IMG/VR virus record: IMGVR_UViG_3300006752_000200
Span: 1-25,451 of that record
Strand: one strand, 5' to 3'
DNA length: 25,451 nucleotides
DNA from: a virus
The first letter of the stretch is position 1; every line of letters begins with the position of its first letter. This document shows, piece by piece, positions 11,554 to 24,328 of this stretch. The notes below the pieces were generated by a model. It saw only the letters and a program-made list of their open reading frames with translations. It was not told the origin of the DNA and did no database searches. A program made the position numbers and the translations under genes.

Positions 11554-11929
11554 GATCCTCCCTATGGTGGTTATCACTCTCCTACTAGGATGCACCGCCC
11601 CCTATGACCAAGAGTGTTGTCTGCGCCTGAGAGGGCTCACACAGTTTCAACGTTCTTATGCGATCAGGACAAATAAACTGGTTAAGTTTAAACGGGTCAA
11701 CCCTAGAGAGATTCGACATTTCTGCAGAGCGACCCCGCCTCTTCAGGTATGCGCTGTAGTAGAACTCGCTGAGCATTATGCACCGGACGGCCTACCACGC
11801 CCTCTAGGTACGTTGTCCAACGGGTTCTACAACAAAGTATGGAGTTTACGATGTGGCTACAAGACGTTAAGGGCTAAGACGCCATATACGCTTAAGTGCC
11901 CATCGGTTCAGCCTATCATAGTGGATTGA
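11546..11929 (+). CDS. Putative lipoprotein (127 aa)
   Basis: The N-terminus MFKILPMVVITLLLGC is a compact type II signal peptide with a lipobox (LLGC) at residues 13-16, so the mature chain should begin at the lipidated C16 and face the periplasm. The remaining 111 residues are basic and contain six further cysteines (including CC at 24-25), so disulfides are likely in the periplasm. Phage lipoproteins include outer-membrane spanins and superinfection-exclusion proteins. This one is longer than most o-spanins and is far from the i-spanin-like gene at 16814, so exclusion or envelope modification is an equally good guess. It is the last gene of the 10295-11929 operon. Confidence 0.68.
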   Translation: MFKILPMVVITLLLGCTAPYDQECCLRLRGLTQFQRSYAIRTNKLVKFKRVNPREIRHFCRATPPLQVCAVVELAEHYAPDGLPRPLGTLSNGFYNKVWSLRCGYKTLRAKTPYTLKCPSVQPIIVD

Positions 11930-11934
11930 CGAGA

Positions 11935-11961
11935 CGCGCAGAGTTTGGCAAGCTTTGCGCG
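11935..11961 (+). terminator. Strong GC-rich hairpin after the lipoprotein gene
   Basis: CGCGCAGAG (11935-11943) pairs with CTTTGCGCG (11953-11961) with one G-U pair, and the loop can zip further. It begins 5 bp after the stop at 11929 and is followed by GTTTGTT, a weak T-tract. An intrinsic terminator is likely, though not textbook. Confidence 0.55.
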
Positions 11962-12023
11962 GTTTGTTCGGCCGAGACATATGACAGCATAAGCAAAGCA
12001 AGCCACCGCGCGGAAAGGCTAAC

Positions 12024-12044
12024 CACTAAGAGTAGTGATTTTTT
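12024..12044 (+). terminator. Short hairpin with T6 tract
   Basis: CACTA-AGAG-TAGTG (12024-12037) followed by A and six T (12039-12044). The 5-bp stem is short, but the U-tract is good. It may back up the hairpin at 11935. Confidence 0.5.
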
Positions 12045-12137
12045 GTGAGCGGAGCATCAAGCAAAAGTTAAGCTAAAGCGCGCGGGAAAGTGACTGTAAA
12101 AGGTACAAGAGAAAGTTTAAACTTGATTTGACCAAAA

Positions 12138-12192
12138 GGAGGTTAAGCAAAAGTTCTTGTTAAAAGGTCACAAGGAGGTTAAGTAAAAGTTC
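12138..12192 (+). repeat. Direct repeat pair GGAGGTTAAGYAAAAGTTC
   Basis: Two copies of GGAGGTTAAG(C/T)AAAAGTTC start at 12138 and 12174, 36 bp apart. No open frame follows either one. Shorter GCAAAAGTTAAGC and AGAGAAAGTTTAA variants lie just upstream. Confidence 0.65.
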
Positions 12193-12219
12193 GAAAATCA
12201 AGTTAATGCGGAGCTATCC

Positions 12220-12329
12220 GCAAGTGATGCAAGACGTTGACGCAAGTACCGCAAGACGTTTGTGCAAGTGATACAAGACGTTGACGCAAGTGATGCAAGT
12301 CATGCTGTCGAGTCATGCAAGTCATGCTG
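12220..12329 (+). repeat. Five 22-bp tandem iterons
   Basis: Units at 12220-12241, 12242-12263, 12264-12285, 12286-12307 and 12308-12329. The first three share GCAAG, then NNNCAAGACGTT; the last two end in CAAGTCATGCTG. Unit length is exactly constant. Iterons of about 20 bp, one per two helical turns, are typical replication-initiator or repressor sites. They lie directly upstream of the promoter at 12364-12411. Confidence 0.8.
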
Positions 12330-12363
12330 ATTCGCCACTCTGGTGCGTTACACATTCAACCAT

Positions 12364-12411
12364 ACTTTTCTAAAACTTTTACTTGACACGTCGCTCTCCG
12401 TGATATATAAC
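12364..12411 (+). promoter_or_regulatory. Strong sigma70 promoter fused to element B
   Basis: ACTTTTCTAAAACTTTTAC (12364-12382) precedes a consensus TTGACA at 12383-12388, a 17-bp spacer and TATAAC at 12406-12411. The upstream half matches the promoter at 14463-14510, including GTTACACATTCAA before it. Confidence 0.78.
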
Positions 12412-12435
12412 GTTATTATGTTATTGTGTTACTGT

Positions 12436-12490
12436 TGATTCGCTGTTGAATCATCAAACATTTGCCCCCTGAAACGTTGGAGATACAACG
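12436..12490 (+). promoter_or_regulatory. Structured 5' leader
   Basis: TGATTC-GCTGTT-GAATCA (12436-12453) forms a 6-bp hairpin. A CCCCC tract follows near 12465. CGTTG-GAGATA-CAACG (12475-12490) then encloses the Shine-Dalgarno two bases before the ATG at 12493. Confidence 0.5.
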
Positions 12491-12492
12491 CT

Positions 12493-13275
12493 ATGTTTAC
12501 GCCTTCATTTACGCCTCAAATGTCTGCTATCGCTAAATCAACTGAATACCTGTTGACGCGCCCTAACAATCCGTTTTATGCAAACACTGTTTTCTCTCTG
12601 TTCAACCACCTTCAAAACGATGATAACGCGCGTACACCCTACGAAATCTACACCGCGCTACACACTCATATGATGCGTCTCTGCGGTACCTCATACACTG
12701 AAACTCCTGATCTTAACGCCTCTATCCTCTGCACTGCTCTGATCGAACTCTTACATACTCATGAATTTTCCGACCTCGACAAACGACACGTGAACCGCCT
12801 CTCTGATAATGCCACCTTGCTTGACCTTGTGTTTTATCATGACTTCGTGATGATTGAACACTCACCACACTTTAATGAATTTATGCATTGTGTACGCTAT
12901 GTCAATAAACATATCCCGATCTCAAAACGTATAAATGATATTAATGCAATTATGAACACGCTCTCATATGCTGACTACGTTGACATCTCTTTTACTGATC
13001 ACCGCGTTATTGCTTACTACATGAACGCATATGCTAACCGATATAAATTATCTCTCGCAACCTTCATTGACGCTCTGTTCACTTTCTACTCTGCATCTAA
13101 CTTCGCGTCCAATGCATCCCATGTTATCGCGTTTAATGACATGACTGCATACAATGACTTTGTGGATCTGTACCGATTCGTCACACATCACGATATCGAA
13201 ATTAACGACAACACCATACCCTTTGTTATTGACTCGTTCACCGCGTTAACATGCGCTCAAATGTCTTCGACCTGA
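12493..13275 (+). CDS. Hypothetical protein (260 aa)
   Basis: Unknown family. It is rich in His, Phe, Tyr, Asn and Asp and poor in Gly and Lys, with helix-prone segments throughout (YANTVFSLFNHLQNDDN, ILCTALIELLHTHEFSDLD, YYMNAYANRYKLSLATFID). No signal peptide, membrane helix or catalytic motif was seen. The consensus promoter, folded leader and GGAG before the ATG make it a convincing and probably highly expressed gene. The coding strand has far more C than G, unlike the genes before 9000. It sits alone between two non-coding blocks, so a role tied to the iteron array, such as an initiator or regulator, is possible but only positional. Confidence 0.78.
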   Translation: MFTPSFTPQMSAIAKSTEYLLTRPNNPFYANTVFSLFNHLQNDDNARTPYEIYTALHTHMMRLCGTSYTETPDLNASILCTALIELLHTHEFSDLDKRHVNRLSDNATLLDLVFYHDFVMIEHSPHFNEFMHCVRYVNKHIPISKRINDINAIMNTLSYADYVDISFTDHRVIAYYMNAYANRYKLSLATFIDALFTFYSASNFASNASHVIAFNDMTAYNDFVDLYRFVTHHDIEINDNTIPFVIDSFTALTCAQMSST

Positions 13276-14140
13276 CACGCCTTGAATCGCCTGTGATTGA
13301 TTAAACGCGCCCCCACTATGTCCTGATACCTAAATCAAACATACGCGTCTTACAATTCAATCTACGTATTGATACTCCCCCCGCGTCACCGCTCACATTT
13401 ATATAAACCCGCGCCCCTCACCGCCCCAACCTAAACGCGCATACCTTCCCCCTAGAGCCACCGCCCTAGAGCCGCCCCTCATAAGACAAGTAAGTCAAGT
13501 ACCGCGCAAAAGTATATCAAGACGAATGAATGCAGAGGACTAAGTAAGATGCATTGCTTAAGTTAATAAAGAAGCTGTCGTCAATTCAACAAGTAAAGTA
13601 TTCCAAGAAGCAAAGAGAATTCATGTAAGTCATCTGGAGCTGCGTTGATTTTTATCAAGCCATGTCCGCGCGACCACCTAGCCCTGTGAACGAAGACGAA
13701 AAGAGCTGTGACCATTCATAAAGAGCTCGCGCAAAAGTAATAAAGAGCTTATCGAAAGAGCCGCAAGAGCTATCATACAGGTCGCTGAGTAAAGTAATCC
13801 CCCTGAGACGAATAAGTAAACTATAAAAGTATTGTAAGTAAAGTACTGTGATCAAGATCATTAAGAGAAGTGATACGAGGTTAATAAGTAATTATCGTGC
13901 GGAGAAGTGTCTATGGCTATTGTCACGGAAGTTGAGGAAAAGTTTTAAGCAAAAGTAACTCACGCGAGTGACGTACTACTGATGCTTCCCCACTGCGCCC
14001 CTAGTTACTTGCTTCACTTAGGCAGTGCTACAAAAAGAAGGCTTTACTAATACTGCGGTGTTAAAGAGAAAGTTTCGGAACGGCTTTTCCTAAGAGAAAG
14101 TTACGCGCGCTTCGCGCTTGCGAGGCTACACGCACCCCTG
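13276..14140. other. Non-coding region with a switch from C-rich to purine-rich sequence
   Basis: The plus strand is C-rich up to about 13480 (with CCCTAGAGCC twice near 13450-13475) and then becomes purine-rich to about 14110. The purine-rich part carries repeated AAAGAGCT, AAGTAAAGTA, GCAAAAGT and AGAGAAAGTT motifs. There is no convincing gene. An 11-codon frame at 13913-13948 has GGAG in front but is too short to call. GCGCG-CTT-CGCGC near 14106 is a small hairpin. Confidence 0.5.
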
Positions 14141-14170
14141 CCTACACGCACCTACACGCGCCTACACCCG
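14141..14170 (+). repeat. Three 10-bp tandem repeats
   Basis: CCTACACGCA, CCTACACGCG and CCTACACCCG in direct succession; a related GGCTACACGCA precedes them. Confidence 0.7.
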
Positions 14171-14176
14171 CCCATA

Positions 14177-14227
14177 TGCATCTGCAACTCACTTGCATCT
14201 GCAACTCACTTGCATCTGCTGTTCACT
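14177..14227 (+). repeat. Three 17-bp tandem repeats
   Basis: TGCATCTGCAACTCACT at 14177-14193 and 14194-14210 is exact; the third unit at 14211-14227 differs in three bases. TGCATCTGCA contains a partial palindrome. Confidence 0.8.
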
Positions 14228-14245
14228 TGAACCGAACGATGAACC

Positions 14246-14321
14246 TTGTACAAACCTCCAACCTTGTACAACGTTGTACAACCTTTTCAACCCTGTACAA
14301 CCACGCCCCGACCTTGTACAA
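14246..14321. repeat. Left cluster of TTGTACAA palindromes
   Basis: TTGTACAA at 14246, 14264, 14274 and 14314, and CTGTACAA at 14293. Start-to-start distances are 18, 10, 19 and 21 bp, close to one or two helical turns. The same octamer clusters at 15721-15801 and I saw it nowhere else in the window. It looks like a protein-binding array next to the parS-like site at 14344. Confidence 0.78.
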
Positions 14322-14343
14322 CGTCCACCGGCGGACACCGTTA

Positions 14344-14359
14344 TGTTTCACGTGAAACG
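14344..14359. other. parS: parS-like ParB-binding site, left copy
   Basis: TGTTTCACGTGAAACG contains a perfect 14-bp palindrome and matches the chromosomal parS consensus TGTTTCACGTGAAACA at 15 of 16 positions. An identical copy lies at 15676-15691. No parA or parB gene is visible in the window, so a host ParB or a phage gene elsewhere would have to bind it. An A5-T8-A-T8 tract follows at 14383-14404. Confidence 0.75.
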
Positions 14360-14462
14360 TTCCACGACCCTGTGACGCGTTCAAAAATTTTTTTTATTTT
14401 TTTTCGCGCCCAAAACCTCAACGAAATCATACACTTACGCCCGACGTTACACATTCAATGTG

Positions 14463-14510
14463 ACTTTTCTAAAACTTTCTCTTGACACCACCGCGCCCCC
14501 CGTATATATT
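14463..14510 (+). promoter_or_regulatory. Strong sigma70 promoter fused to element B
   Basis: ACTTTTCTAAAACTTTCTC (14463-14481) precedes TTGACA at 14482-14487, a 17-bp spacer and TATATT at 14505-14510. It is nearly identical upstream to the promoter at 12364-12411. Confidence 0.78.
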
Positions 14511-14515
14511 GATAT

Positions 14516-14566
14516 TGTGATCGTCGCTGTGACGCTTCACACCACACCCCTTGACTCCAACGGGAG
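14516..14566 (+). promoter_or_regulatory. Structured 5' leader
   Basis: TGTGA (14516-14520, and again 14528-14532) can pair with TCACA (14537-14541). A C-tract follows, then CTCC-AACG-GGAG (14555-14566), with the Shine-Dalgarno in the right arm, 8 bases before the ATG at 14575. Confidence 0.52.
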
Positions 14567-14574
14567 ACACCGAT

Positions 14575-15255
14575 ATGACCTTTTCACTCGCTGACCTTGC
14601 CAACGCGATCCCTACCAAATCAACCACACGCGCTACCAAAACGCCCCACGTGATCAATGTCGAAATTGACCTTGAAACCCTCGCTGATTCACCCCTCATC
14701 GCTTGCCCCAACCTCGCTCCTGTCTTCGCTAACCCGCGTCATGCCTACGACATCATCAAGGGTAACGATGCACCGCTCACAATCACCCCTAACGTCTCGC
14801 TCGCAATCGCACCTAAACACGCGACCTTGACCCTCACCTCCACCTCCAACACATCACCAAAACTTGACGACATCGTGATGCCACGTGTTCTCACGAACCT
14901 TGCTCAATGCAACGTCTCATCACGTCGCCACCCACGCCACCAAATGAACCAACTCGTGTCGTTGTGTACCATCGCGCGCCTCGTTGCCTGTTTCGCTACA
15001 TACCTTCGACCGCGTGACGTGACGATCTCACGAACACAGGGTAACGATGTCCTGTACGCGCACACTGCACATTCTCCGACTGCTCTCGCTCATGCTGTTG
15101 CCTGTGTTGTGTGCGCGTCCTGTGATGATCACACCGCATACACGCACGCCTTCAACGCTGTTCACAACGCCTTGACGCGCACCACCGACACCGACGCGCT
15201 TCCTCATGACTACCCCGCGACCCTCGTCAACGCGCTTGCTACGCTCTGCCCCTGA
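14575..15255 (+). CDS. Hypothetical protein (226 aa), paralogue of the 10295-11149 product, between two parS-like sites
   Basis: Not recognised. FSLADLA (3-9), LAPVFANPRHAYDIIKGN (47-64) and QLVSLCTIARLVACFATYL (126-144) recur in the same order in the larger product of 10295-11149. The protein is rich in Ala, Thr, His and Cys, basic in the middle (SSRRHPRHQ) and contains hydrophobic alpha-helical stretches without a clear membrane span. The ATG at 14575 follows GGGAG; the frame extends to TTG 14551 inside the leader hairpin, which I reject. Coding-strand C greatly exceeds G (28 versus 11 in 15181-15240). It is the only gene between the two parS-like sites and palindrome clusters, so it is the first candidate for a protein that binds them. 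Confidence 0.75.
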   Translation: MTFSLADLANAIPTKSTTRATKTPHVINVEIDLETLADSPLIACPNLAPVFANPRHAYDIIKGNDAPLTITPNVSLAIAPKHATLTLTSTSNTSPKLDDIVMPRVLTNLAQCNVSSRRHPRHQMNQLVSLCTIARLVACFATYLRPRDVTISRTQGNDVLYAHTAHSPTALAHAVACVVCASCDDHTAYTHAFNAVHNALTRTTDTDALPHDYPATLVNALATLCP

Positions 15256-15660
15256 TCCTCACCTCGCGCTGATCTGATCCCCCGTGCGCTCCGTGTCCAC
15301 ACCACGAACCGCACAACACACACGCGCTCATGCGCGTGTTCTCGTTTGCACCCCCACCACCTGGAGCAACGTTGCGCCTTGATCCGCCCCCCCGCGACCG
15401 CGCACTACCCATGCCTCGCGTGTGATGCTTGAATCTTGACCGCCCCCGCTGTGACTCGACCCCGCTCACCTCTGCGCTGCTCATCACTCACGCGTCTCAC
15501 AATGCCTCTTAAACGCTTCGTATCGTCTCACCTATACGCTGACACACCTTGACCCTCTAACGTTGCCTGTGATCGATCCTCGCAATGATCACGCCTCACT
15601 CACCACCGCCTCCCGACCACGCCCCGCCTTCCTAGTTGGTATCGTTACTACCTCGCGACC
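15256..15660. other. C-rich non-coding region with a terminator-like hairpin
   Basis: ACACGCGC-TCAT-GCGCGTGT (15320-15339) is a perfect 8-bp stem 64 bp after the stop at 15255. The following TTCTCGTTT is only weakly T-rich, so termination is possible. GCAACGTTGC near 15367 is a 10-bp palindrome. Nothing else was found. Confidence 0.45.
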
Positions 15661-15675
15661 ATGACGCGCTCCCTA

Positions 15676-15691
15676 TGTTTCACGTGAAACG
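15676..15691. other. parS: parS-like ParB-binding site, right copy
   Basis: The same 16-mer as at 14344-14359, TGTTTCACGTGAAACG, within a longer identical stretch TATGTTTCACGTGAAACGT. The copies are 1332 bp apart in the same orientation. Here the TTGTACAA cluster follows the site, whereas at the left copy it precedes it. Confidence 0.75.
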
Positions 15692-15720
15692 TCTGCGCCT
15701 CGCGTTGACCCCGTGCAACC

Positions 15721-15809
15721 TTGTACAACCGACCCGACCTTGACCCGCGCCCAACGTTGTACAACGCTGTACAACGTCGCGCTGTGTTCAACGTTGTACA
15801 ACGTTGAAC
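15721..15809. repeat. Right cluster of TTGTACAA palindromes with a 24-bp perfect palindrome
   Basis: TTGTACAA at 15721, 15757 and 15794, and CTGTACAA at 15767. The last lies at the centre of a perfect 24-bp palindrome at 15786-15809, whose half is GTTCAACGTTGT. The 15757-to-15767 distance is 10 bp, as between two sites of the left cluster. Confidence 0.78.
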
Positions 15810-15838
15810 GCGCCTGAGCGTTCTGTTTAACCGAACGA

Positions 15839-15907
15839 CCGAAAAACCGAAAAAAATCATTTTTTCCCGTTTTTCCGAAAAAAAAAATTTTCGCGAAATT
15901 TGCGAAA
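15839..15907. other. A/T tracts with a long imperfect inverted repeat
   Basis: An imperfect 18-bp inverted repeat spans 15839-15877 (left arm begins CCGAAAAACC, right arm ends GTTTTTCCG). A run of ten A, TTTTCGCGAAA and further A-tracts follow. It could be a bidirectional terminator or an easily melted or bent element of an origin. Confidence 0.5.
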
Positions 15908-15982
15908 AAAACCCGACTTCTCGGCCGTCCGAAACGTGACACCCTTTACGACAGAATGAAAAATGAAAGTGTCGGACAAAAA

Positions 15983-16011
15983 AGTTTTAGAAAACTACGG
16001 TAGAACCGAAC
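15983..16011 (+). promoter_or_regulatory. Recurrent element B (AGTTTTAGAAAACT subtype)
   Basis: AGTTTTAGAAAACTACGG followed by TAGAACCGAAC. The first 14 bases are palindromic except for the central AG. The same subtype precedes the terminase gene (18764) and the minor head gene (22209). Confidence 0.58.
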
Positions 16012-16059
16012 TAGAATGATGATGATACCAAGAATAACCTTTGCAAAACTGAGGTTTAT

Positions 16060-16087
16060 TTGCTAAACTAGCTATTGATAGTAATCT
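16060..16087 (+). promoter_or_regulatory. Sigma70-like promoter, TTGCTA family
   Basis: TTGCTA at 16060-16065, a 16-bp spacer and TAATCT at 16082-16087. TTGCAA at 16041-16046 with TAAACT at 16064-16069 (17-bp spacer) is an overlapping alternative. Confidence 0.55.
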
Positions 16088-16134
16088 ACGGAAATTAAAA
16101 ATTCGGTGATCATTAAAAAGATAGGGCAAGAGAC

Positions 16135-16428
16135 ATGGCAAGAATCTACTATTTAAAGACAAAGACAGAAGACAGTGATGGAGACATAACGGGTGATATG
16201 TGGGGTCACTCTAAGATGCAATTAATCGCGTTTGCAGAAGACTTACTAAGAGAAGGACTCGCTAAGAGCTGTAAGGTTTACGAGATGACCTTTAACCATG
16301 AGGGTTCACCGCGACACTTGTTGGTGAGTGTTCTGAACAAGGACATAAAGCCTGAATCTGTAATGATATGGAAGTCTTCATCTGACTGCTACGAGGCTTT
16401 GATTCAGAGAGAAAATAACAATGATTGA
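16135..16428 (+). CDS. Hypothetical protein (97 aa)
   Basis: Unknown family. A compact alpha/beta sequence: a basic start (ARIYYLKTKTED), a helix (MQLIAFAEDLLREGLAKSC), a strand-like KVYEMTFNHEGSPRHLLVSV, and a polar C-terminus. There is no membrane segment. The ATG lies after AGGGCAAGAGAC. The gene overlaps rusA by 8 bp (ATG of rusA within its last codons), so the two are cotranscribed and this protein may act in the same DNA-processing step. Confidence 0.74.
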   Translation: MARIYYLKTKTEDSDGDITGDMWGHSKMQLIAFAEDLLREGLAKSCKVYEMTFNHEGSPRHLLVSVLNKDIKPESVMIWKSSSDCYEALIQRENNND

Positions 16429-16915
16429 CCTAAGATTTTTCGCACTGGGCGCACCGAGAGGAAAACAGCGTCCACGCATGGCGCGCAGAGGCCGAAGAAC
16501 GATCACGTACACACCTACTGAGACTTTAGAATATGAGCGTAAGATACGAGAGGCTTTTCTGTTATCCGCGATACACGATCAGCTCCCGTTGATCGGGCCG
16601 CTTTGGGTGGATCTGGTAGCAATCTTCCCGCGTACTAAGGCTTTATCCTTCTGTTATAAGAACGGTACATACAAGCACAGCACCTCACGCATATTACACG
16701 CGGTTAAACCCGACGAAGACAACATACGCAAATGTGTCCTAGATGGGATTGGAGACTACATAGAGGGTGGCGATTCAAGGGTTGTCGGAGGCACAACACT
16801 CAAGGTCTACTGTTCAATCGACGAGAGCCCTGGAACGCTCGTCCGTATCCGGCAATTCAAGGATCTTTCTGAGATCAACGCCATTTATGATTGGGGCTGG
16901 GCGTCCAATCGGTAA
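16421..16915 (+). CDS. rusA: RusA-family Holliday junction resolvase
   Basis: RusA is a small dimeric endonuclease that cuts four-way DNA junctions, used by phages to clear branched DNA before packaging. The family pattern is visible: a basic N-terminus (APRGKQRPRMARRGRRT), KPDEDNIRKCVLDGI at 96-110 holding the metal-binding aspartates D98 and D100 and the conserved N101 and K104, and D108 with GGDSRVV (115-121), where D118 takes the place of the third acidic ligand. The length of 164 residues is a little longer than the about 120 of E. coli RusA because of a C-terminal extension. The last 102 bp overlap the oppositely directed spanin-like gene. Confidence 0.9.
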   Translation: MIDLRFFALGAPRGKQRPRMARRGRRTITYTPTETLEYERKIREAFLLSAIHDQLPLIGPLWVDLVAIFPRTKALSFCYKNGTYKHSTSRILHAVKPDEDNIRKCVLDGIGDYIEGGDSRVVGGTTLKVYCSIDESPGTLVRIRQFKDLSEINAIYDWGWASNR

Positions 16916-17203
16916 CGTGTTGATTTCTTTTTTCATCATACGGGATGAGCCATTTAAATGCTTTAACGTCTTAAGTACACGGGCTCTCATCTTCTCATTA
17001 GCGATGCGCGCCTGTATCTGTTTATCTTTAAGGGCTTGAACAAGATCCTGTTGCTGTAATGACTGCGCTCTCAGCATCGTAAGATCTTTATTCAATCTAT
17101 TAATCGCCTGTTTCTTTGCGGCTATGGTGTGATTACTGTGCATGAGATAACAACTAAGGCTAAGCAGTAATATAAACGTGCTGAATACAATAAGACGGCT
17201 CAT
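16814..17203 (-). CDS. Inner-membrane spanin-like protein (Rz-like, 129 aa)
   Basis: The N-terminus RLIVFSTFILLLSLSCYLM is a signal anchor, followed by a long charged region (about 28-85) with heptad-like spacing predicted to form a periplasmic coiled coil (KQAINRLNKDLTMLRAQSLQ) and a proline-rich end. This is the plan of an i-spanin, which links inner and outer membranes to complete lysis. AGGGAG precedes its start, which overlaps the upstream stop as TAATG. No o-spanin gene embedded within or after it was found, though the lipoprotein at 11546 could serve. It is convergent with rusA, sharing 102 bp of coding DNA. Sequence identity to a named Rz is not evident. Confidence 0.68.
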   Translation of the reverse strand: MSRLIVFSTFILLLSLSCYLMHSNHTIAAKKQAINRLNKDLTMLRAQSLQQQDLVQALKDKQIQARIANEKMRARVLKTLKHLNGSSRMMKKEINTLPIGRPAPIINGVDLRKILELPDTDERSRALVD

Positions 17204-17517
17204 TATTGACTCCCTGTAAAGAGCCTTGTGTTTAGGGCTCTAATATCAGTGCGGGTTTCCTCCATACGCTTGTCGATCCTGTCAAGGGTCACTGTGATCG
17301 ACCCTAGCGTTACGGCATTCGCGGTGGTTGTTTTACTGAGCGCTTTGATATCTTCGGCTGCGGAATCAACTGCGTTTTGTGTGTTATCTAGGCGTGCCTT
17401 TAAGACCGCGACATCATTACTAATGGTATTGATCCACAACAACGCGGGTGCTAAGCCTGCGGCGCATAATTTCCAAATAAGATCTGTTTTTACACCTGAA
17501 GGGACAGGATTTTCCAT
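17203..17517 (-). CDS. Membrane-anchored coiled-coil lysis protein, holin-like (104 aa)
   Basis: One hydrophobic segment (LIWKLCAAGLAPALLWINTI, about 13-32) is followed by a probable coiled coil (VAVLKARLDNTQNAVDSAAE) and a charged tail. Small single-span proteins next to an Rz-like gene are often holins or holin partners, so export of the transglycosylase at 17890, or control of lysis, is plausible. The start at 17517 is chosen for the AGGAG 7 bases upstream; a longer frame to 17580 lacks a ribosome site and covers the promoter. The minus-strand promoter at 17553-17580 would drive both lysis genes, in opposition to the rest of the genome. Confidence 0.6.
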   Translation of the reverse strand: MENPVPSGVKTDLIWKLCAAGLAPALLWINTISNDVAVLKARLDNTQNAVDSAAEDIKALSKTTTANAVTLGSITVTLDRIDKRMEETRTDIRALNTRLFTGSQ

Positions 17518-17552
17518 GAAGACACTCCTAAGCGTTGGCATTATTTCCGCTA

Positions 17553-17580
17553 ATTTTAGCACATTAAATGTATTGTGCAA
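17553..17580 (-). promoter_or_regulatory. Minus-strand sigma70-like promoter for the lysis pair
   Basis: On the minus strand TTGCAC (17580-17575), a 16-bp spacer and TAAAAT (17558-17553). GCACA and TGTGC on either side of the spacer form an inverted repeat. It is divergent from the plus-strand promoter at 17596, 15 bp away. Confidence 0.6.
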
Positions 17581-17595
17581 ACCTCGCGATAATAT

Positions 17596-17624
17596 TTGCT
17601 AAGATTATCGGTATAACGTATGAT
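17596..17624 (+). promoter_or_regulatory. Sigma70-like promoter, TTGCTAAGA family
   Basis: TTGCTA at 17596-17601, a 17-bp spacer and TATGAT at 17619-17624. Confidence 0.74.
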
Positions 17625-17639
17625 AAATACGTTAAATGA

Positions 17640-17670
17640 TGTGATTATCACACCCCCCGACGAAATGGAG
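17640..17670 (+). promoter_or_regulatory. Structured 5' leader (short form)
   Basis: TGTGA-TTA-TCACA (17640-17652) is followed directly by CCCCCC (17653-17658) and GGAG (17667-17670) before the ATG at 17676. This is the most compact version of the leader seen at 6337, 9076, 10224 and 14516. Confidence 0.55.
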
Positions 17671-17675
17671 ACACA

Positions 17676-17906
17676 ATGTCTGATGAATCCCGACCATCGT
17701 CCTGTAAGAAGACGATTTATTTCCCAAGCGCGATGCTTGAAGAAATCATGCAAGAATGTACACGCCTAGAGCGGAGCTTCTCTTGGGTAATGCAGAGAGC
17801 ATGGCGCTTTTCCAAGCAATCAATCCAAGACATGCCCGGATTAAATGATATAGAAGGCATAGAAGAACCGCCCACTGAGGAAAAAATTAATGCTGACGCT
17901 CGCTAA
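17676..17906 (+). CDS. Small ribbon-helix-helix-like protein (76 aa)
   Basis: KKTIYFPSAMLEEIMQECTR followed by LERSFSWVMQRAWRFSKQSI fits a ribbon-helix-helix fold: a short strand, a helix with LEEI, and a second helix starting at SFSW. It closely resembles in pattern a small-protein family I recall from Myxococcota and Bdellovibrionota (TIGR04563), but that assignment is from memory. Ribbon-helix-helix proteins bind DNA as dimers, so this may be a regulator. GGAG precedes the ATG by 5 bases and the gene overlaps the transglycosylase gene by 17 bp. An acidic tail (EGIEEPPTEEK) follows the domain. Confidence 0.7.
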   Translation: MSDESRPSSCKKTIYFPSAMLEEIMQECTRLERSFSWVMQRAWRFSKQSIQDMPGLNDIEGIEEPPTEEKINADAR

Positions 17907-18432
17907 GCTTTGTACTTTTGTGGCGTTACAGACTTTTTCTGCCCACACTCCGACGTATACGCCTTTGAGTTCTATGTCCATCTCTTACCAAAATAAGTGG
18001 AAGAGAAAATACATGAAGCCCAAGATCGACGAATGCAAGAAACTGCTTATGCTAGCAAAAGATCTACCAGGGCTACATGTAGACAAGAAGCTAAGACTAA
18101 AGCGTCATGAATATCTTTGGGTTCTCGCGACGGCTGTCGTCGAAAGCGCATTAGACGATAATGTCGTATCTTCGCGCAAGGCGAGGAGCTCTATGCAGAC
18201 ATACCGCAAGTATTCGCCATGTGTGCGATGTGATTTACGGGTAGCGGGTATTTACCACGCTGTACGTTATCTAAGAGAGCATGGCGCGTGTTCAGCAGCG
18301 GCCAAATATAACGCTGGGCCTAGAGGTTCTTGTATGGGTGTTGGCAGTGGCTATGCTGTAAAAGTGCTTAATGTGTATGAGCGCATATGCGAAGAAGACG
18401 GCACAAAATGCCCGATTGATTGGGGTTGCTAA
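17890..18432 (+). CDS. Lytic transglycosylase-like peptidoglycan hydrolase (endolysin candidate)
   Basis: The first 24 residues (MLTLAKLCTFVALQTFSAHT onward) look like a signal peptide or signal-arrest sequence. The domain that follows has the soluble lytic transglycosylase order: WVLATAVVESALDD with catalytic E85, RKARSSMQ at 97-104 in place of the usual GLMQ, a helix around AGIYHAVRYLREHG, and AAAKYNAGP at about 136-144. Such enzymes cleave MurNAc-GlcNAc bonds to release anhydro-muropeptides. At 180 residues it is short for a virion protein and suits an endolysin; an entry enzyme is the alternative. Four cysteines (C111, C114, C134, C148) suggest disulfides in the periplasm. GAGG precedes the start. 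Confidence 0.8.
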   Translation: MLTLAKLCTFVALQTFSAHTPTYTPLSSMSISYQNKWKRKYMKPKIDECKKLLMLAKDLPGLHVDKKLRLKRHEYLWVLATAVVESALDDNVVSSRKARSSMQTYRKYSPCVRCDLRVAGIYHAVRYLREHGACSAAAKYNAGPRGSCMGVGSGYAVKVLNVYERICEEDGTKCPIDWGC

Positions 18433-18762
18433 ATGAAGATTGATGATTACCAAGATTTTACTGAGACTACGGCTATTTACCCGAAGGACACCGCGCTCGC
18501 TTACCTCGCTCTAGGGCTTGCCTCTGAAACGGGTGAGGTTTGCGATAAGCTTAAGAAGCATATTCGCGACTCAACAGAAGATGAGCTATCACGATCACAA
18601 GCAATAGAGTTGGCTAAAGAGCTAGGCGATGTTCTTTGGTATGTGGCTAGAATCGCTCAAGAATTAGACATGTCTTTATCGCAGGTCATCTTAATGAACT
18701 ACAACAAGCTAACTAGCCGTAAGGCTAATAACACTATAAAGGGTAGCGGAGATAACCGCTAA
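18433..18762 (+). CDS. MazG-like nucleoside triphosphate pyrophosphohydrolase
   Basis: MazG-fold enzymes hydrolyse (d)NTPs, or ppGpp-like alarmones, to monophosphates, and phages use them to influence nucleotide pools or host stress signalling. SETGEVCDKLKK holds the first metal-binding ExxE (E32 and E35) and KELGDVLWYVARIAQEL holds the second ExxD (E63 and D66). The total of 109 residues fits a single-domain, four-helix MazG. The ATG abuts the preceding stop (TAAATG), so translation is coupled to the transglycosylase. Element B lies just after its stop. Confidence 0.9.
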   Translation: MKIDDYQDFTETTAIYPKDTALAYLALGLASETGEVCDKLKKHIRDSTEDELSRSQAIELAKELGDVLWYVARIAQELDMSLSQVILMNYNKLTSRKANNTIKGSGDNR

Positions 18763-18763
18763 A

Positions 18764-18795
18764 AGTTTTAGAAAACTAGGGTAGAACTTGATATG
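18764..18795 (+). promoter_or_regulatory. Recurrent element B at the terminase start
   Basis: AGTTTTAGAAAACTAGGG followed by TAGAACTTGATATG. It begins 2 bp after the mazG-like stop and its end overlaps the terminase ATG. AGGG inside the element may be the ribosome site. Confidence 0.6.
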
Positions 18796-20460
18796 GAAAC
18801 AAAACGAATAATTTCAAGAAAAGACATGCTCGAGCTTGCAGACAAGGCTTTTAAATTTTGTCTCGTCGCAAGCGGTGTAGAGCTTTACCCTTATCAAAAA
18901 GAGTTTGGCTTACGGATCTGTCAATCTGTTCTACTTGAGGATGCTGATGAGATCACCGCGTTGTTCTCTCGCCAGAGCGGTAAGACTGAAACTGTATCAT
19001 GTGTTGTACCAAGCCTATGCGTATTACTCCCTACGTTAGCGCAAGATCCCGCTCTTTCGGAAGACTCTCGCATCTCTAAATTTAAAGGCGGCTTTTGGTG
19101 TGGCATCTTTGCGCCTAATTACGAGTTAGCGGGTATTATGCACTCTCGCATGGCGGCTCGTCTCGCGAGTTCTGCGATGCAAGAGGTATTGCAAGATCCT
19201 GATATTGACATACAGCTCAACTCAGGGCGCAAGATCCTCCAACTTCCGAATGGTAGCCGTGTTGATTCTAATAGCGCGGGACCACATACCGCCATAGAGG
19301 GTAAAACTTACCACTTACTGATATGTGAAGAGACACAAGACATAGCAGACTATAAGATACGCAAGAGTATTCACCCTATGGGCGCGGCTACTTCTGCAAC
19401 AATCATTAAGATTGGAACTCCCGCGCCTAGAGTATGTGACTTCTACGAGGCTTGTGAACGTAACCGAACACGTAGCCTAGAGGCGGGCCAAAACTCGCTT
19501 AAGACTCACTTTGAGTATGACTATACTGTAGCGCAACAATATAACCCGCGTTATGAGCAATACATTGTTAAAGAGATCCAACGTCTTGGCTACGAGAGTG
19601 ATGACTTTCGTATGTCCTATAGACTGCATTGGATATTAGAGCGTGGTTTATTTATTACTCCTGAACTACTTAAAGAGTGCGGAGTTAGCACTCGCGAAAC
19701 TCTCCGCTCTGAGAGTGGCGATTCGACGTTCGCGCTATCAGCGGGATTATCGAATGTAGATAGATCGACTGATAATCTAATAGCGTCAATTGATATTGGT
19801 CGACACAGCGACTCTACGGTGGTGACTGTCGCTAAGGTTTGGTGGGAGAATCCGTCTAAGCAGGCGGGTGAACAGCGATTTCATACACATATTCTTAATT
19901 GGCTAGAGCTTCAAGGCGACGACCATGAGAGGCAATACCCACAGATCTTACAGTTTTTATCGAACTATAATTTAGGATCTATTGTTGTTGACGCTACGGG
20001 TAGAGGTGATCCAATTTACGACCGCATTAACGCAGACTTGGAAGACATCGAGGTATGGCCGTTTATCTTTACTCAGAAATCAAAGCATGAGGGTTATACT
20101 GTTCTATATCAGGAGATTTTTGCCAAGCGGATCACATACCCTTCATCTCCAGGAGCACAAAAGAGCTCAAAATGGAGAAAGTTTGTAAGACAAACCACGA
20201 CATTGGAGAAAAATTGGAAGGGCAAATATATGTCTGTAGAGGCCCCTTCTCAAAAGGGCAAGGGAGCAAAGGCTCTTGATAAGCCTCACGATGATTACCC
20301 TGATAGCCTAATGATGTTATGTTGGCTGATACACCGAAAGAGTTGGAGCATAGACTATGGAGAATCCCTCACACGAAAATCAGACATGCTCTACGACCGA
20401 GCAAGAGACAGACGATCGGGACTTACATCAAACGCCCGTTCTAGCCGGAATAGATGGTGA
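18793..20460 (+). CDS. terL: Terminase large subunit
   Basis: TerL is the ATP-driven motor and nuclease that packages phage DNA through the portal. The ATPase half has LYPYQKEFG (an adenine-motif-like region, 31-39), Walker A SRQSGKTE (59-66), Walker B YHLLICEET (173-181) and the coupling motif IKIGTPAP. The nuclease half has ASIDIGRHSDSTVV, SIVVDATGRGDPIYDRI and KPHDDYPDSLMMLCWL, supplying RNaseH-like acidic residues. The length of 555 residues is normal. In Walker B the usual DE is replaced by EE after a cysteine (ICEE). The start at 18793 follows AGGG in element B. The last 104 bp overlap the next gene. No small terminase subunit gene is recognisable upstream. Confidence 0.93.
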   Translation: METKRIISRKDMLELADKAFKFCLVASGVELYPYQKEFGLRICQSVLLEDADEITALFSRQSGKTETVSCVVPSLCVLLPTLAQDPALSEDSRISKFKGGFWCGIFAPNYELAGIMHSRMAARLASSAMQEVLQDPDIDIQLNSGRKILQLPNGSRVDSNSAGPHTAIEGKTYHLLICEETQDIADYKIRKSIHPMGAATSATIIKIGTPAPRVCDFYEACERNRTRSLEAGQNSLKTHFEYDYTVAQQYNPRYEQYIVKEIQRLGYESDDFRMSYRLHWILERGLFITPELLKECGVSTRETLRSESGDSTFALSAGLSNVDRSTDNLIASIDIGRHSDSTVVTVAKVWWENPSKQAGEQRFHTHILNWLELQGDDHERQYPQILQFLSNYNLGSIVVDATGRGDPIYDRINADLEDIEVWPFIFTQKSKHEGYTVLYQEIFAKRITYPSSPGAQKSSKWRKFVRQTTTLEKNWKGKYMSVEAPSQKGKGAKALDKPHDDYPDSLMMLCWLIHRKSWSIDYGESLTRKSDMLYDRARDRRSGLTSNARSSRNRW

Positions 20461-20659
20461 TGTAGAGTTATCTATTGATGTCATCGCGCATGAGGCGGGT
20501 ATTGATCCTAAGTTGGTACGTAGATATTTATATCGCGGAGTGTTAGGTTCAACTAAGGCATCAGATGTCCGAGATTGGCTTAATCATCATCAACCTAATC
20601 TTGTTTGTCGCGGCTCTCGGATTGACAGAGGTCGCGTCTTTAATAAATGGAGAAACTAA
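20357..20659 (+). CDS. Small protein with a probable helix-turn-helix (100 aa)
   Basis: The C-terminal part (ELSIDVIAHEAGIDPKLVRR, then YLYRGVLGSTKASDVRDWLN) resembles a MerR/excisionase-like winged helix: a first helix, a turn with GIDP and a recognition helix. The N-terminal 35 residues are acidic and polar and probably disordered. GGAG at 20345-20348 lies 8 bases before the ATG even though this is inside terL, so the 104-bp overlap is likely real. The stop is followed immediately by the portal ATG. Its place between TerL and portal makes a displaced small terminase subunit possible, but a transcription regulator is equally so. Confidence 0.68.
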   Translation: MENPSHENQTCSTTEQETDDRDLHQTPVLAGIDGDVELSIDVIAHEAGIDPKLVRRYLYRGVLGSTKASDVRDWLNHHQPNLVCRGSRIDRGRVFNKWRN

Positions 20660-22216
20660 ATGGCAGTTATTGACAGCACCCCCTTTGGTAAGGCCGACTC
20701 CTTAACCCATCAGATGTTATTGGGTTTTCGCGAGAAGCACGCCTATCGTCTTAAGAGATATGACGAATACACAAAATTTTATCGAGGAGCGCATTGGGCT
20801 CGGACAAGATCACCTGATGATCACTTTGTGACTATGAATTATTGTAGCCGTATTGTAGACATTCACGCTGATTTCTTAATGAAGGATGGGTTTAGTGTTG
20901 TCATTCCCGACGACCCTGAATCTCCGGAGTTTGAGCCTGAGACTTTAAACTTCTTGAGCAAGGCGTTGGATCGCGTATGGCATTTAAACGAGAAGAATGA
21001 TCTTGCTCTCAATATGGGGCAAATGGCAGGCGTCACCGGCGATTGTTTTGTCCGTGTATCCCTTAAAGAAGATGATATTTATGGGGATTACCCTTGTTTA
21101 GAGGTTATACCGAGTGCGTATGTATTCCCTACTTTTCATGGACCACATGGGCCTGCGCAGAGTAAGCTGCATAGCGTCTTAATTTCTTACCCCAAATACT
21201 CTGAGGCGATTAACTTCAAGGAAATCGCGGGTTTAGACAGGGCTAACCGTAAATTTGGCGAACCTGATCAGGCTGTAGAGTATCATGTTGAGCGTTGGTA
21301 TGACGACCGCGTGATTTATTATCACGACGACGGCAAAGAGGAGATACGACCGAACCCTCTAGGGCGTATACCTTTAGTGCATATCCCTAATTATCCTATT
21401 GCTGGAGAATACTATGGGCGCTCAGACCTCGCGTTTATTCTACCTCTCCAGAGAGAGCTTAATGAGAAGGCTACGGATGTATCTGATGTGATTAACTATC
21501 ACGGGTCACCTGTTACGATTGTTAAGGGAATCAAGGTATCGCATTTGGAGCGTGGCGCTAATCGAACTTGGAGTATTCCTGATCATGCGTCTATTGAGAA
21601 TCTTGCGCTTAATGGCGAGCTTGACGCATCTATGCAATACTTAGAGCGTGTACGTAAGGCTATGTTTGAGATTGCGGGAATACCTGAACAGGTTTTATCT
21701 CCGACGCATCAATATCAAAGTGCAGTGGCGGGTTCACTCGCTTACAATAGCATGATTAATCTACGCAAGAGCAAGATCACATCTTTCCGCAAGGGCATCC
21801 GCGAGATTAACAGCTTAATCGTGCGAATGCTTATGATCACTGAGCCTGAGTTTGCTGATAAGGCGCGTCAACACCCATTGAGGCACTTATATAACACTGA
21901 TGTTGTGTTTGGAGAGCCTTTACCCCGTAATGAGAGTATTGAGCTTGACCGCGCTGAGAGGCGTCTTCGACTTGGGTTAACCTCACGTCGCTATGAGATG
22001 GAGAAGATGGGCATATCTCGCGCTGAGATGGAGAAGATTACTCAAGAGGTTCAGGCAGATAGAGAGTCCATGTTAATGTTTGAGGAACACGCGGGCGCGA
22101 TGCTTTATAGCTCAGCGGGTGGCGGTAATCCTAACCCTACGTCTGCTAACTCTGATATAACGGGCGAGAAGAAATCTGAAAGGTTCCCTGAGAGTAAAGC
22201 GGGACAAGAGTTTTAG
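20660..22216 (+). CDS. Portal protein (SPP1-type)
   Basis: The portal forms the dodecameric ring at the capsid vertex through which DNA enters and leaves. The order of features agrees with SPP1/HK97-like portals: an N-terminal segment RYDEYTKFYRGAHWARTRSP (about 34-53), TMNYCSRIVDIHADFLMKDG, an acidic wing, GDCFVRVSLKEDD, RIPLVHIPNYPI, and the central stem region beginning PLQRELNEKATDVSDVINYH, followed by SPTHQYQSAVAGSLAY and a C-terminal helical tail. The length of 518 residues is normal. The ATG abuts the previous stop and GGAG lies 9 bases upstream. The gene ends within the element B that precedes the minor head gene. Confidence 0.9.
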   Translation: MAVIDSTPFGKADSLTHQMLLGFREKHAYRLKRYDEYTKFYRGAHWARTRSPDDHFVTMNYCSRIVDIHADFLMKDGFSVVIPDDPESPEFEPETLNFLSKALDRVWHLNEKNDLALNMGQMAGVTGDCFVRVSLKEDDIYGDYPCLEVIPSAYVFPTFHGPHGPAQSKLHSVLISYPKYSEAINFKEIAGLDRANRKFGEPDQAVEYHVERWYDDRVIYYHDDGKEEIRPNPLGRIPLVHIPNYPIAGEYYGRSDLAFILPLQRELNEKATDVSDVINYHGSPVTIVKGIKVSHLERGANRTWSIPDHASIENLALNGELDASMQYLERVRKAMFEIAGIPEQVLSPTHQYQSAVAGSLAYNSMINLRKSKITSFRKGIREINSLIVRMLMITEPEFADKARQHPLRHLYNTDVVFGEPLPRNESIELDRAERRLRLGLTSRRYEMEKMGISRAEMEKITQEVQADRESMLMFEEHAGAMLYSSAGGGNPNPTSANSDITGEKKSERFPESKAGQEF

Positions 22217-22240
22217 AAAACTATAGGGGAACTTGTAATG
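22209..22240 (+). promoter_or_regulatory. Recurrent element B at the minor head gene start
   Basis: AGTTTTAGAAAACTATAGGG followed by GAACTTGTAATG. It overlaps the portal stop and provides AGGGGA as the ribosome site for the ATG at 22238. The run CTATAGGGGA also resembles the initiation part of single-subunit phage RNA polymerase promoters. Confidence 0.6.
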
Positions 22241-23092
22241 ACGCAACCATTACCACGCGCGGCCAAAGGCACAGGATTGATCATAGAGAGTGATCAGCTT
22301 TCTTATACATCTGTTCAGGGTCGTTCTGAATATCTCTCTGTAGCTAGGGGTTATTTAGACCTACCAAGAATAGAGAATCCAGAGATTGCTATTAATAAGC
22401 AAATGTCGGGCGCGATGCGTAGGCGCATGCGGATGGACGTGCTGTCTCCTATTATCAAGGACTTAGCTGTTTCATCTGCTTATAGATCATTATCGTTTTC
22501 GCTTACTGCTGAGATGAACTTATTTCGGGAACAACTCTCGGACGCAATATCTAGGCAACTTCGCAGGGACTATGCTCTTTTAAGGCGTCAAGGCTTTAAC
22601 ATTGATGTGAGCAAGGAGGCTCACGCGCTTAGGCTATCCTCATCATTATCTCGCGTTAAATCAGAGATGGAGTTTGTTGGATCTCGCGCGAGCAATCTAT
22701 ATAACAAGACGTTTACGAACGTGTCTAAGCAGCTTAACTTAGCTGAACCTAACACGGGCGTAATCGCGAGGCATATAACGCCTAATACATATGAACGGGT
22801 AAACCACCCATCCCTCTCTAGGGGTCTTGCTTCTTTAGAGAGGACATCACTGCAGAGGGCTCGCATGTCTGCTCAGGCTAATCTTTATGTTGAGGCAGGC
22901 GTAGAATTCGTCTATTGGAGGCTATCCTCTTCACACAAGGATTACGGCGGTTCTGAGGTGTGTGAGGTTCTTGCATCATCTACAGGAAACATTGCCTCTA
23001 GGACTCGTAATGAGCAAGGCATTTATTCTTTGCGAGAGGCTCCACAGGCTCCGCATCCTAATTGCATGTGTAGCTTGGTCGCTACAAAATAA
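22238..23092 (+). CDS. Minor head protein (SPP1 gp7 / Mu F-like)
   Basis: The C-terminal 70 residues hold the family signature: FVYWRLSSSHKDYGGSEVCE, then HPNCMCSLVATK at the very end, in which a Cys pair and DxxxxxVC/HPNC pattern are typical of head morphogenesis proteins of this group. The preceding 200 residues are helical and basic with many Arg, Ser and Leu. These proteins bind the portal and take part in head assembly or DNA ejection. At 284 residues it is close to SPP1 gp7 (about 300). It directly follows the portal gene, the usual order. The start follows AGGGGA at 7 bases. Confidence 0.82.
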   Translation: MTQPLPRAAKGTGLIIESDQLSYTSVQGRSEYLSVARGYLDLPRIENPEIAINKQMSGAMRRRMRMDVLSPIIKDLAVSSAYRSLSFSLTAEMNLFREQLSDAISRQLRRDYALLRRQGFNIDVSKEAHALRLSSSLSRVKSEMEFVGSRASNLYNKTFTNVSKQLNLAEPNTGVIARHITPNTYERVNHPSLSRGLASLERTSLQRARMSAQANLYVEAGVEFVYWRLSSSHKDYGGSEVCEVLASSTGNIASRTRNEQGIYSLREAPQAPHPNCMCSLVATK

Positions 23093-23094
23093 AT

Positions 23095-23123
23095 TTGATA
23101 AGTTATCAGAAATGCTGTATTAT
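23095..23123 (+). promoter_or_regulatory. Sigma70-like promoter, TTGCTA family (TTGATA variant)
   Basis: TTGATA at 23095-23100, a 17-bp spacer and TATTAT at 23118-23123. The -35 overlaps TGATAAGTTATCA (23097-23109), a palindrome except for its centre and a plausible operator. Confidence 0.68.
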
Positions 23124-23275
23124 ATGTATATCCGATAAATATACATAATCTATTTTCTCTGTATTTGTCTGATAACTCGTCTTAATAAGGTCTTATTAAC
23201 AGCAGACTTTCCGAAAACTATGCTTGAACCTGTCTACAGGTTTATCGAGAAAATCTTTGACTTTGTGAGAGTCAA
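23124..23275 (+). promoter_or_regulatory. Dyad-rich leader of the scaffold/capsid operon
   Basis: In order: ATGTATAT/ATATACAT hairpin (23124-23146); CTGATAACT (23169-23177), complementary to AGTTATCAG at 23101-23109; TTAATAAG/CTTATTAA (23182-23199); element B (23206-23237); AACCTG-TCTA-CAGGTT (23227-23242); TTGACT/AGTCAA (23257-23275). This concentration of dyads precedes the most highly expressed structural genes. Confidence 0.58.
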
Positions 23276-23320
23276 CCATATTATGATGAATAGTCCCATC
23301 TTAAACTAAGGAGATTGATT

Positions 23321-23545
23321 ATGTCACGCGGACCATCACTTAACGCACAGAATGCGCCTGCCGTAGCGCCCACAGAGGGCCTTAACACAGAGGTAGGCGG
23401 TAATCGCGGAACTGTCGTATCAATGACAGCGCCAAACGTTCCTCGCACCCGTACCCAAGCTCAAGTACCTGGTGGTGCTCAGCTTATCCAAAATGGTGCA
23501 GATGGAATGGAGCGCGCAATGCCGCGCGCAAGCCAAATCCGTTAA
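23321..23545 (+). CDS. Hypothetical small protein (74 aa), likely disordered
   Basis: Not recognised. It is low in hydrophobic residues and rich in Ala, Pro, Gly, Asn, Arg and Thr (RGPSLNAQNAPAVAPTEGLN, then TEVGGNRGTVVSMTAPNVPR), which suggests an extended or disordered chain. The ATG at 23321 has AAGGAG 7-8 bases before it; the in-frame TTG at 23315 is too close to that site. It is the first gene of the scaffold/capsid operon and may be a head accessory or scaffold helper; this is positional only. Confidence 0.7.
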   Translation: MSRGPSLNAQNAPAVAPTEGLNTEVGGNRGTVVSMTAPNVPRTRTQAQVPGGAQLIQNGADGMERAMPRASQIR

Positions 23546-23581
23546 TTATTAATTCGCATCACCACCCTGTAAGGACATAGA

Positions 23582-24316
23582 ATGACTGATACGCTAAAAG
23601 ATACAGAGCAAACACTGAATGAAGCTGCAGCTGAGCAATCTCCTGTAGATGAAAATGGAACAGATACAATTACCCGCCAAGACTTAATATCTGCTGTAGA
23701 AAAAGCGCGACAACAAGAAAAAGATAAGCTGTACTCAAGACTTGAGGATCTCGATTCTTCTAGGGATCAGCTTAACACTAAACTTGAAGAGTCCGCGGAT
23801 ATGCTACGCTCTCTTATGCAAGAGAGAGATGATGCTAAGAAGCAACTAGAAGAAAAAGCGCTCGAAGAATTGTCTGCCGAAGAAAAAGTCGCTATTCGAC
23901 TTAAGGCACTCGAGGAAAAAGAAGCTTCACTTCAAGCTCAGCTTGAGCAAGTTGCAACCGAGGCGGCTAAGAGGGTTCGCGACTCAGAGCTAAAACTCTA
24001 TCGCGCTAATAGACTCGCAGAGTCGGGTCTTACACTAACCGAACTCGTCTCAGGCTTATCAGAGCAGGAGATCGACGAGAGTATTGTTAAGGCAAAGGAG
24101 CGAGAGGATGTAATCTTCGCTAAGGCACGCGAACGTGTTAAAGCGGAATTCTCTCAGAACTTACCTAAGCCTTCTGTCCCTGCATCAGTTACGCAGGACG
24201 CAACAGCACTTAATGTCGTTGATCCTCGCAAAAAGTATGAGCTTGCTAATCTTTCCACTCAAGATTTCAATAAACTCAAGGCAGAGCTTCTCGAAAGAGC
24301 TCGCGCCAATTCCTAA
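23582..24316 (+). CDS. Capsid scaffolding protein
   Basis: Scaffolding proteins guide assembly of the procapsid and leave before maturation. The product has an acidic N-terminus, a long predicted coiled coil from about 30 to 160 rich in Glu, Lys, Leu and Ala (DKLYSRLEDLDSSRDQLNTK, KALEEKEASLQAQLEQVATE), and a shorter C-terminal part with a basic helical end (DFNKLKAELLERARANS) that could bind the capsid protein. At 244 residues and directly upstream of the major capsid gene, it fits the role by composition and order rather than by sequence match. AAGGA precedes the ATG. Confidence 0.8.
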   Translation: MTDTLKDTEQTLNEAAAEQSPVDENGTDTITRQDLISAVEKARQQEKDKLYSRLEDLDSSRDQLNTKLEESADMLRSLMQERDDAKKQLEEKALEELSAEEKVAIRLKALEEKEASLQAQLEQVATEAAKRVRDSELKLYRANRLAESGLTLTELVSGLSEQEIDESIVKAKEREDVIFAKARERVKAEFSQNLPKPSVPASVTQDATALNVVDPRKKYELANLSTQDFNKLKAELLERARANS

Positions 24317-24328
24317 TAGGAGTACATC

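Follow-up and report, generated by a model that had tools for sequence, protein, structure and literature searches.

CdbA of Myxococcus xanthus (MXAN_4361; structures 6sbw and 6sbx) is an essential ribbon-helix-helix nucleoid-associated protein in which DNA binding and c-di-GMP binding are mutually exclusive (PMC7156744). The protein is abundant, bends DNA, occupies more than 500 sites and binds a fragment of its own promoter in vitro (PMC7156744). The substitutions K8A/S10A and R27A/R30A each abolish binding of both DNA and c-di-GMP, and K8, S10, R27 and R30 are invariant (100%) among the homologues compared there (PMC7156744). According to its authors, no ribbon-helix-helix protein before CdbA had been shown to bind a ligand with this domain, and they identified no homologues outside the Myxococcales (PMC7156744).

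Loss of CdbA disrupts the nucleoid and leads to cell death (PMC7156744, PMC10313047). In M. xanthus without CdbA, CdbS rises, wrecks the nucleoid and kills the cell; an antiphage role for this pathway was weighed and set aside by the authors, who left its purpose open (PMC10313047). CdbB (MXAN_4362), a paralogue of CdbA that binds c-di-GMP in vitro (PMC7156744), is encoded in a chromosomal operon with cdbA and is dispensable. No description of a phage-borne CdbA was found in excerpts of the literature on CdbA and on phages and c-di-GMP, and a literature search found no paper that names TIGR04563.

The CdbA-like gene and its residues

The window (the whole 25,451-nucleotide stretch of DNA analysed) encodes a terminase large subunit (TerL), a portal and a major head protein, which identify it as a phage contig. 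The small ORF that the first-pass annotation had singled out is present at its assigned position (Table 1). It encodes 76 aa, with an ATG at 17676, a stop codon at 17904–17906 and GGAG upstream of the start. The first-pass annotation had assigned it to TIGR04563 as a ribbon-helix-helix protein. That assignment stands, with a score of 71.2–71.4 bits (E 4e-20) against the curated cut-off of 65 bits; what it overlooked is the main point, the identity of TIGR04563 with CdbA. The ORF is the sole TIGR04563 match in a six-frame search of the window and ranks among the low scorers in the family.

M. xanthus CdbA itself passes the TIGR04563 cut-off (112.5 bits for a 60-residue CdbA segment). In a single-sequence phmmer search, CdbA is the single strong PDB match of the window protein (1.5e-15; next 0.26). 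A family profile was built from alignment A4, which comprises 34 members (seven viral, 27 encoded at cellular loci). Searched against the complete set of PDB sequences, this profile has CdbA (6sbw/6sbx, E 1.5e-33) as its sole strong match, followed by PutA at E 0.8. On these sequence comparisons, TIGR04563 is the CdbA family.

Matches to other families are weak. Pfam RHH_5 scores 13.6 bits with the window protein (cut-off 26), and no PHROGs match is present at E 0.1. Among the 34 family members, 15 weakly match phrog_25976 (best 2.5e-4) and 23 weakly match the BrnA antitoxin (best 5.9e-4); the window protein matches neither. Two candidate relatives (L004 and L005) were dropped, as their similarity to the query was confined to its charged tail and lay within a larger protein. 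Some rows of alignments A1 and A3 begin a few residues upstream of the probable start, which leaves the core unaffected.

The AlphaFold2 model of the window protein contains helices at 18–31 and 35–51, with a mean pLDDT of 76.3 and 26 of 76 residues at 90 or above. The modelled helices agree with the ribbon-helix-helix layout (strand, helix 16–28, helix 32–48), and the strand is unassigned in this single-chain model. In a Foldseek search with this model, CdbA (6sbx, 6sbw) occupies ranks 1 to 3 (E 6e-4 to 4e-3), ahead of VapB, CopG, AmrZ and Arc, all with E >0.5. Arc of phage P22 and the CopG repressors are small regulators of mobile elements. They share the fold of the phage protein at 10–23% identity in structure matches, and we know of no reported c-di-GMP role for them.

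The phage protein and M. xanthus CdbA belong to the same family across the whole ribbon-helix-helix domain. In the phmmer alignment, which has no gaps here, each CdbA residue number corresponds to the number three higher in the window protein (K8 is K11, S10 is T13, Y12 is Y15, R27 is R30, D29 is E32, R30 is R33, S31 is S34, W34 is W37 and N54 is N57). The strand K8-S10-Y12 of CdbA corresponds to K11-T13-Y15 in the window, and the R27/R30 loop to R30/R33. Strictly, three of the four needed residues (K8, R27 and R30) are identical, and S10 is conservatively changed to T13. Y12, S31, W34 and a short charged C-terminal tail are also common to both proteins. Unlike M. xanthus CdbA, the phage protein has T for S10, E for D29 and M53 for the tetramer residue F50, and does not keep the pocket residue K6 (S9 by ungapped extension). 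Among the tetramer contacts F50/V53/V56 and W34/I42/I47, the window keeps W37 and I50 and carries M for F50, L for V53, I for V56 and F for I42. Q38 is R in the window protein.

Relatives in viral contigs and in Myxococcota

A profile scan of IMG/VR yielded 38 candidate stretches, from which 26 viral contigs were confirmed, including the related phage contig G002. No family match was found in the 50,697 phage records of INPHARED or the 72,556 records of PLSDB. The CdbA family therefore looks like a recurrent and so far undescribed part of uncultured, probably myxobacterial phages. With the window included, 27 records were examined for viral hallmarks. Terminase_6N is found at E 0.001 or better in ten of them (five over cut-off) and also in 6 of 14 cellular controls; a tail-sheath domain is found in six of the 21 records tested (three over cut-off) and in 3 of 14 controls. 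At least one of the two hallmarks is present in 14 of 27 records. The other 13 are viral by IMG/VR label alone, with DNA polymerase and clamp genes in addition for G022.

Residues were compared across 28 viral proteins (the window, G002, G003 and 25 IMG/VR loci, with the G002 locus counted once), in which the members of the pairs L105/L106, L107/L109 and L110/L112 are identical over the aligned segment. All 28 retain K8, Y12, R27 and W34. R30 is kept in 27 and is K in one, and S31 is kept in 26. Position 10 is S in 24 and T in four, and position 29 is D in 25 and E in three. N54, which the window protein has, is retained in just 11 of the 28 (six not covered). F50 is found in none of the 28, and this position is also variable in cellular family members. 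This conservation supports a working CdbA and is by itself no proof of c-di-GMP binding, because the same residues hold DNA. The phage CdbAs form a natural variant set for separating DNA contacts from c-di-GMP contacts.

Homologues occupy the same place in two related phage contigs, G002 and G003, whose TerL proteins are 78–89% identical to that of the window. In G002 the order is conserved as RusA, two small divergent genes (one Rz-like), the CdbA-like gene, transglycosylase, MazG, TerL, portal and head. G003 also keeps the gene order, with just one of the two divergent genes matched. Between the window and G002, a single contig pair, the core (residues 10–45) has dN 0.06 and dS 1.75, a dN/dS of approximately 0.04; across 58 codons, synonymous changes have reached saturation, with a pN of 0.20. 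For this pair, the substitution estimates show purifying selection on the core of the gene. The ORF is more than a chance reading frame, because homologues occupy the corresponding position in G002 and G003 and because dN is 0.06 against a dS of 1.75. The gene is small and clearly host-derived, which would also suit a host gene carried along passively and playing no part in infection. Such carriage is scarcely credible given purifying selection and the constant position in contigs with this level of TerL identity. Among more distant relatives (TerL 45–63%), the family is found in none of six records (G004–G009), some of which are short fragments.

In the tree, which contains 64 distinct rows of 69, a 99/99 split divides the CdbA side from a second chromosomal paralogue, and all seven viral proteins included lie with CdbA. 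Six of the seven are nested with cellular VMQRAW/VVQRAW proteins, and the viral proteins do not form one clade. The tree has few columns and long branches, that of G003 above all. The second TIGR04563-like chromosomal group of Myxococcota (KKKMTLYF type, L081–L100) shares the domain with the phage protein but forms a separate branch (99/99) with 19 of its 20 chosen copies. These 20 copies score 62–82 bits with TIGR04563, and one of them (L097, in G104) is the only family match of its genome and not a second copy. A prophage origin for the lower-scoring chromosomal copies was rejected, as inspection by eye of the ORFs at five loci (L081, L086, L088, L089 and L093) showed chromosomal-looking neighbours.

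The first-pass annotation had tied the family to Myxococcota and Bdellovibrionota and had taken it as a hint at the host. The Myxococcota link of the family is well supported. A scan of 84,980 species genomes with two narrow peptide patterns gave 72 candidate stretches and 11 confirmed relatives, all titled Myxococcales, Myxococcaceae, Deltaproteobacteria or delta proteobacterium; this narrow scan gave no match in Bdellovibrionota. In at least seven of the 11 loci, read by eye with two proteins tested by Pfam, an alpha/beta hydrolase follows the chromosomal gene. The TIGR04563 HMM was run on 188 sampled genomes of Myxococcota (the phylum of Myxococcaceae bacterium GW715_bin.15); 76 of them score above cut-off and the other 112 have no match, and none of 14 controls reaches the cut-off.

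The host of this phage is still inferred. The phage GC content is approximately 45%, below all 41 measured cellular loci (0.50–0.74). Spacers had been put forward in the first-pass annotation as a way to the host, and none convincing was found by blastn of window 5452–25451 (20,000 of 25,451 bases) against 377 Myxococcota genomes with the best two candidates per genome. The test is weak because only two candidates were scored per genome, and its list is lax (E up to 10). Its best-ranked row (4.3e-6) falls within the MazG coding sequence and is not claimed as a spacer; the rows at 15665–15699 reflect parS-like sites in the genomes. Searched against the same number of Myxococcota genomes, TerL had a single weak match (9.7e-4, 86 aa) among the rows listed for the best three candidates per genome, and this match was not taken as a relative. 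In named phages, TerL and the head protein find their best matches in BRock-like Streptomyces phages and a Bacteroides phage, which at 32–35% are too distant to assign a host. The host is likely to be a myxobacterium, and a host within the Myxococcota is highly probable. The phage CdbA may serve as a host marker for unassigned viral contigs.

Lysis-region setting and predicted role

The phage gene sits in a lysis region, unlike cdbA of M. xanthus, and the function of its protein is predicted only. The last 17 nt of the CdbA-like gene are shared with the transglycosylase gene. The transglycosylase assignment rests on homologues, two of five of which match Pfam SLT (best 1.6e-4), and on a weak profile match to EtgA (0.0069); the window protein itself has no match in Pfam or PHROGs.

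Table 1. The CdbA-like gene, its neighbours and its upstream region in the window.
Feature	Coordinates	Strand	Basis
RusA-like resolvase	16421..16915	+	PHROGs/Pfam searches
Second small divergent gene	16814..17203	-	Very weak Rz-like matches, 0.02-0.03
Rz-like spanin candidate	17203..17580	-	phrog_214, 6.8e-4; divergent from CdbA-like gene
Divergent intergenic region, candidate promoter and operator	17581..17675		Upstream of CdbA-like gene
Sigma-70-like candidate promoter TTGCTA-17-TATGAT	17596..17624	+	9/12 positions
Dyad TAACGTAT-n5-ATACGTTA	17614..17634		Perfect arms
Dyad TGTGAT-T-ATCACA, candidate operator	17640..17652		Between promoter and start codon
CdbA-like gene	17676..17906	+	ORF list, TIGR04563, PDB match, AlphaFold2, Foldseek, residue alignment
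Probable SLT-type lytic transglycosylase (endolysin)	17890..18432	+	Homologues' Pfam SLT, EtgA profile match
MazG-like pyrophosphohydrolase	18433..18762	+	PHROGs/Pfam searches
Terminase large subunit	18793..20460	+	TerL match

The intergenic region is alignable with G002, where it lies within one long blastn match, and weakly with G003. The candidate promoter is weak by itself, since a scan of 2 kb found two such sites against 3.7 expected, no better than shuffles; by eye, the promoter layout in G002 is alike. When the 95-bp region was shuffled 2000 times with dinucleotides preserved, 34 shuffles contained perfect arms of at least 8 bp with a spacer of up to 10. Autoregulation is common among small ribbon-helix-helix proteins. 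By analogy with these, and with the binding of CdbA to its own promoter fragment, we infer that the CdbA-like gene is autoregulated. No operator common to phage and cellular genes was seen by eye in the upstream regions, and the cellular promoters vary between groups.

The motif AAGTTTTAGAAAACTANGGTAGAA occurs without mismatch just ahead of terL (18763) and at 15982, and with 2–6 mismatches at 12355, 14454, 22208 and other positions. It is absent ahead of the CdbA-like gene. G002 contains 13 copies with 2–6 mismatches. This motif is possibly a phage-specific promoter class.

Several features would fit a CopG/Arc-like local repressor of the lysis operon: the gene overlaps that of the transglycosylase, the Rz-like gene is divergent from it, and the alignable intergenic region contains dyads and lacks AAGTTTTAGAAAACTANGGTAGAA, the motif ahead of terL. 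Such a repressor would time the transglycosylase and the divergent spanin, and any c-di-GMP binding would be vestigial. As the whole function of the protein this is rather unlikely. The same protein with the same residues is kept elsewhere, in tRNA arrays and among replication genes, and no lysis gene was recognised next to cdbA among the ORFs inspected by eye in those contigs.

The context of cdbA varies by virus, from the lysis region in the window to a tRNA array in several large contigs and replication genes in G022. Arrays of 25–35 tRNA genes enclose the homologue in 5 of 25 loci scanned (L107, L109, L111, L116 and L121), in viral contigs of 55–200 kb. In these loci the homologue lies around position 6001, on the strand opposite to the tRNAs and between tRNA-Gln(ttg) and tRNA-Thr, directly after tRNA-Gln(ttg) each time. 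L107 and L109 have the same protein segment and flanking tRNAs. Since different phages carry the same protein in varied contexts, a function in trans is likelier than control of one neighbour. A shared function in trans, on the nucleoid or on phage DNA, is the more likely reading, and in the phage of the window the lysis operon is probably also under the control of the CdbA-like protein.

Two further observations concern these large contigs. An EF-Tu-like ORF, recognised by eye from its translation, lies beside the tRNA array of a 194-kb viral contig (L111, 1–1116). A 209-kb viral contig encodes a tRNA with anticodon CTA (L102, 1296–1371; tRNA-Pyl per ARAGORN), with possible TAG suppression.

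The preferred reading, which draws on comparison of sequences and has a somewhat better than even chance of being right, is of a phage-borne CdbA that was taken from a Myxococcota host and is kept by selection. The protein would form a CdbA-type tetramer and bind DNA with moderate specificity through the K11-T13-Y15 strand and the R30/R33 loop, and binding of c-di-GMP would make it release DNA. With less assurance, it might act in trans during infection, as a nucleoid-associated protein that replaces host CdbA or competes with it while the chromosome is disturbed. It might also bind the dyads at 17614–17652 and in this way control its own operon with the overlapping transglycosylase. A phage CdbA of this kind suggests that such viruses tap into host chromosome control.

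Competition with host CdbA could instead be hostile. A host-takeover factor would poison host CdbA, either by joining it in mixed tetramers or by competing with it for sites, and the nucleoid would fall apart. The strand, loop and W34 are closely similar to those of host CdbA, and the reported consequence of CdbA loss is a disrupted nucleoid and death (PMC7156744, PMC10313047). Conservation of the tetramer residues, however, is only partial (F50 to M, Q38 to R), no change looks inactivating, and a poisoning role is improbable.

A phage CdbA acting in trans might also bear on the CdbA-CsdK-CdbS death pathway. If infection strips or titrates CdbA, the pathway would be a guard of nucleoid integrity, and the phage CdbA would keep it silent. 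It is a speculative and unlikely proposal that Myxococcota phages carry CdbA against this pathway, silencing it until lysis, with possible gating of lysis by c-di-GMP in the phage of the window. Such gating could arise because c-di-GMP would release the phage CdbA from the promoter of the transglycosylase operon. A phage-borne CdbA makes the purpose of the CdbA/CdbS death pathway directly testable.

Other features of the window

Two identical 19-bp copies of TATGTTTCACGTGAAACGT (14342–14360 and 15674–15692) flank the ORF at 14551–15255. Both copies contain a perfect 14-bp core of the parS consensus, the site of chromosomal ParB. At up to three mismatches, two parS-like sites are found in the window against 0.13 expected, and one of 100 shuffles had two. 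This core, with similar flanks, is also present in three Myxococcota loci. Another cdbA-bearing contig (G001) contains one GTTCCACGTGAAAC. Sites at up to three mismatches are absent from G002, from 20,000 of the 20,989 bases of G003 and from the examined parts of five other TerL relatives. No ORF of the window was recognised as a ParB gene, and the phage may recruit the ParB of its host.

Clusters of the iteron TTGTACAA at 14242–14321 and 15717–15801, seven exact copies in all, adjoin the parS-like sites. G002 has four copies around the same ORF. Local GC skew is strong in this region, which looks like a replication origin. At 56–3175, genes for a cytidylyltransferase-like protein, ThyX and a B12-dependent ribonucleotide reductase lie in a row.
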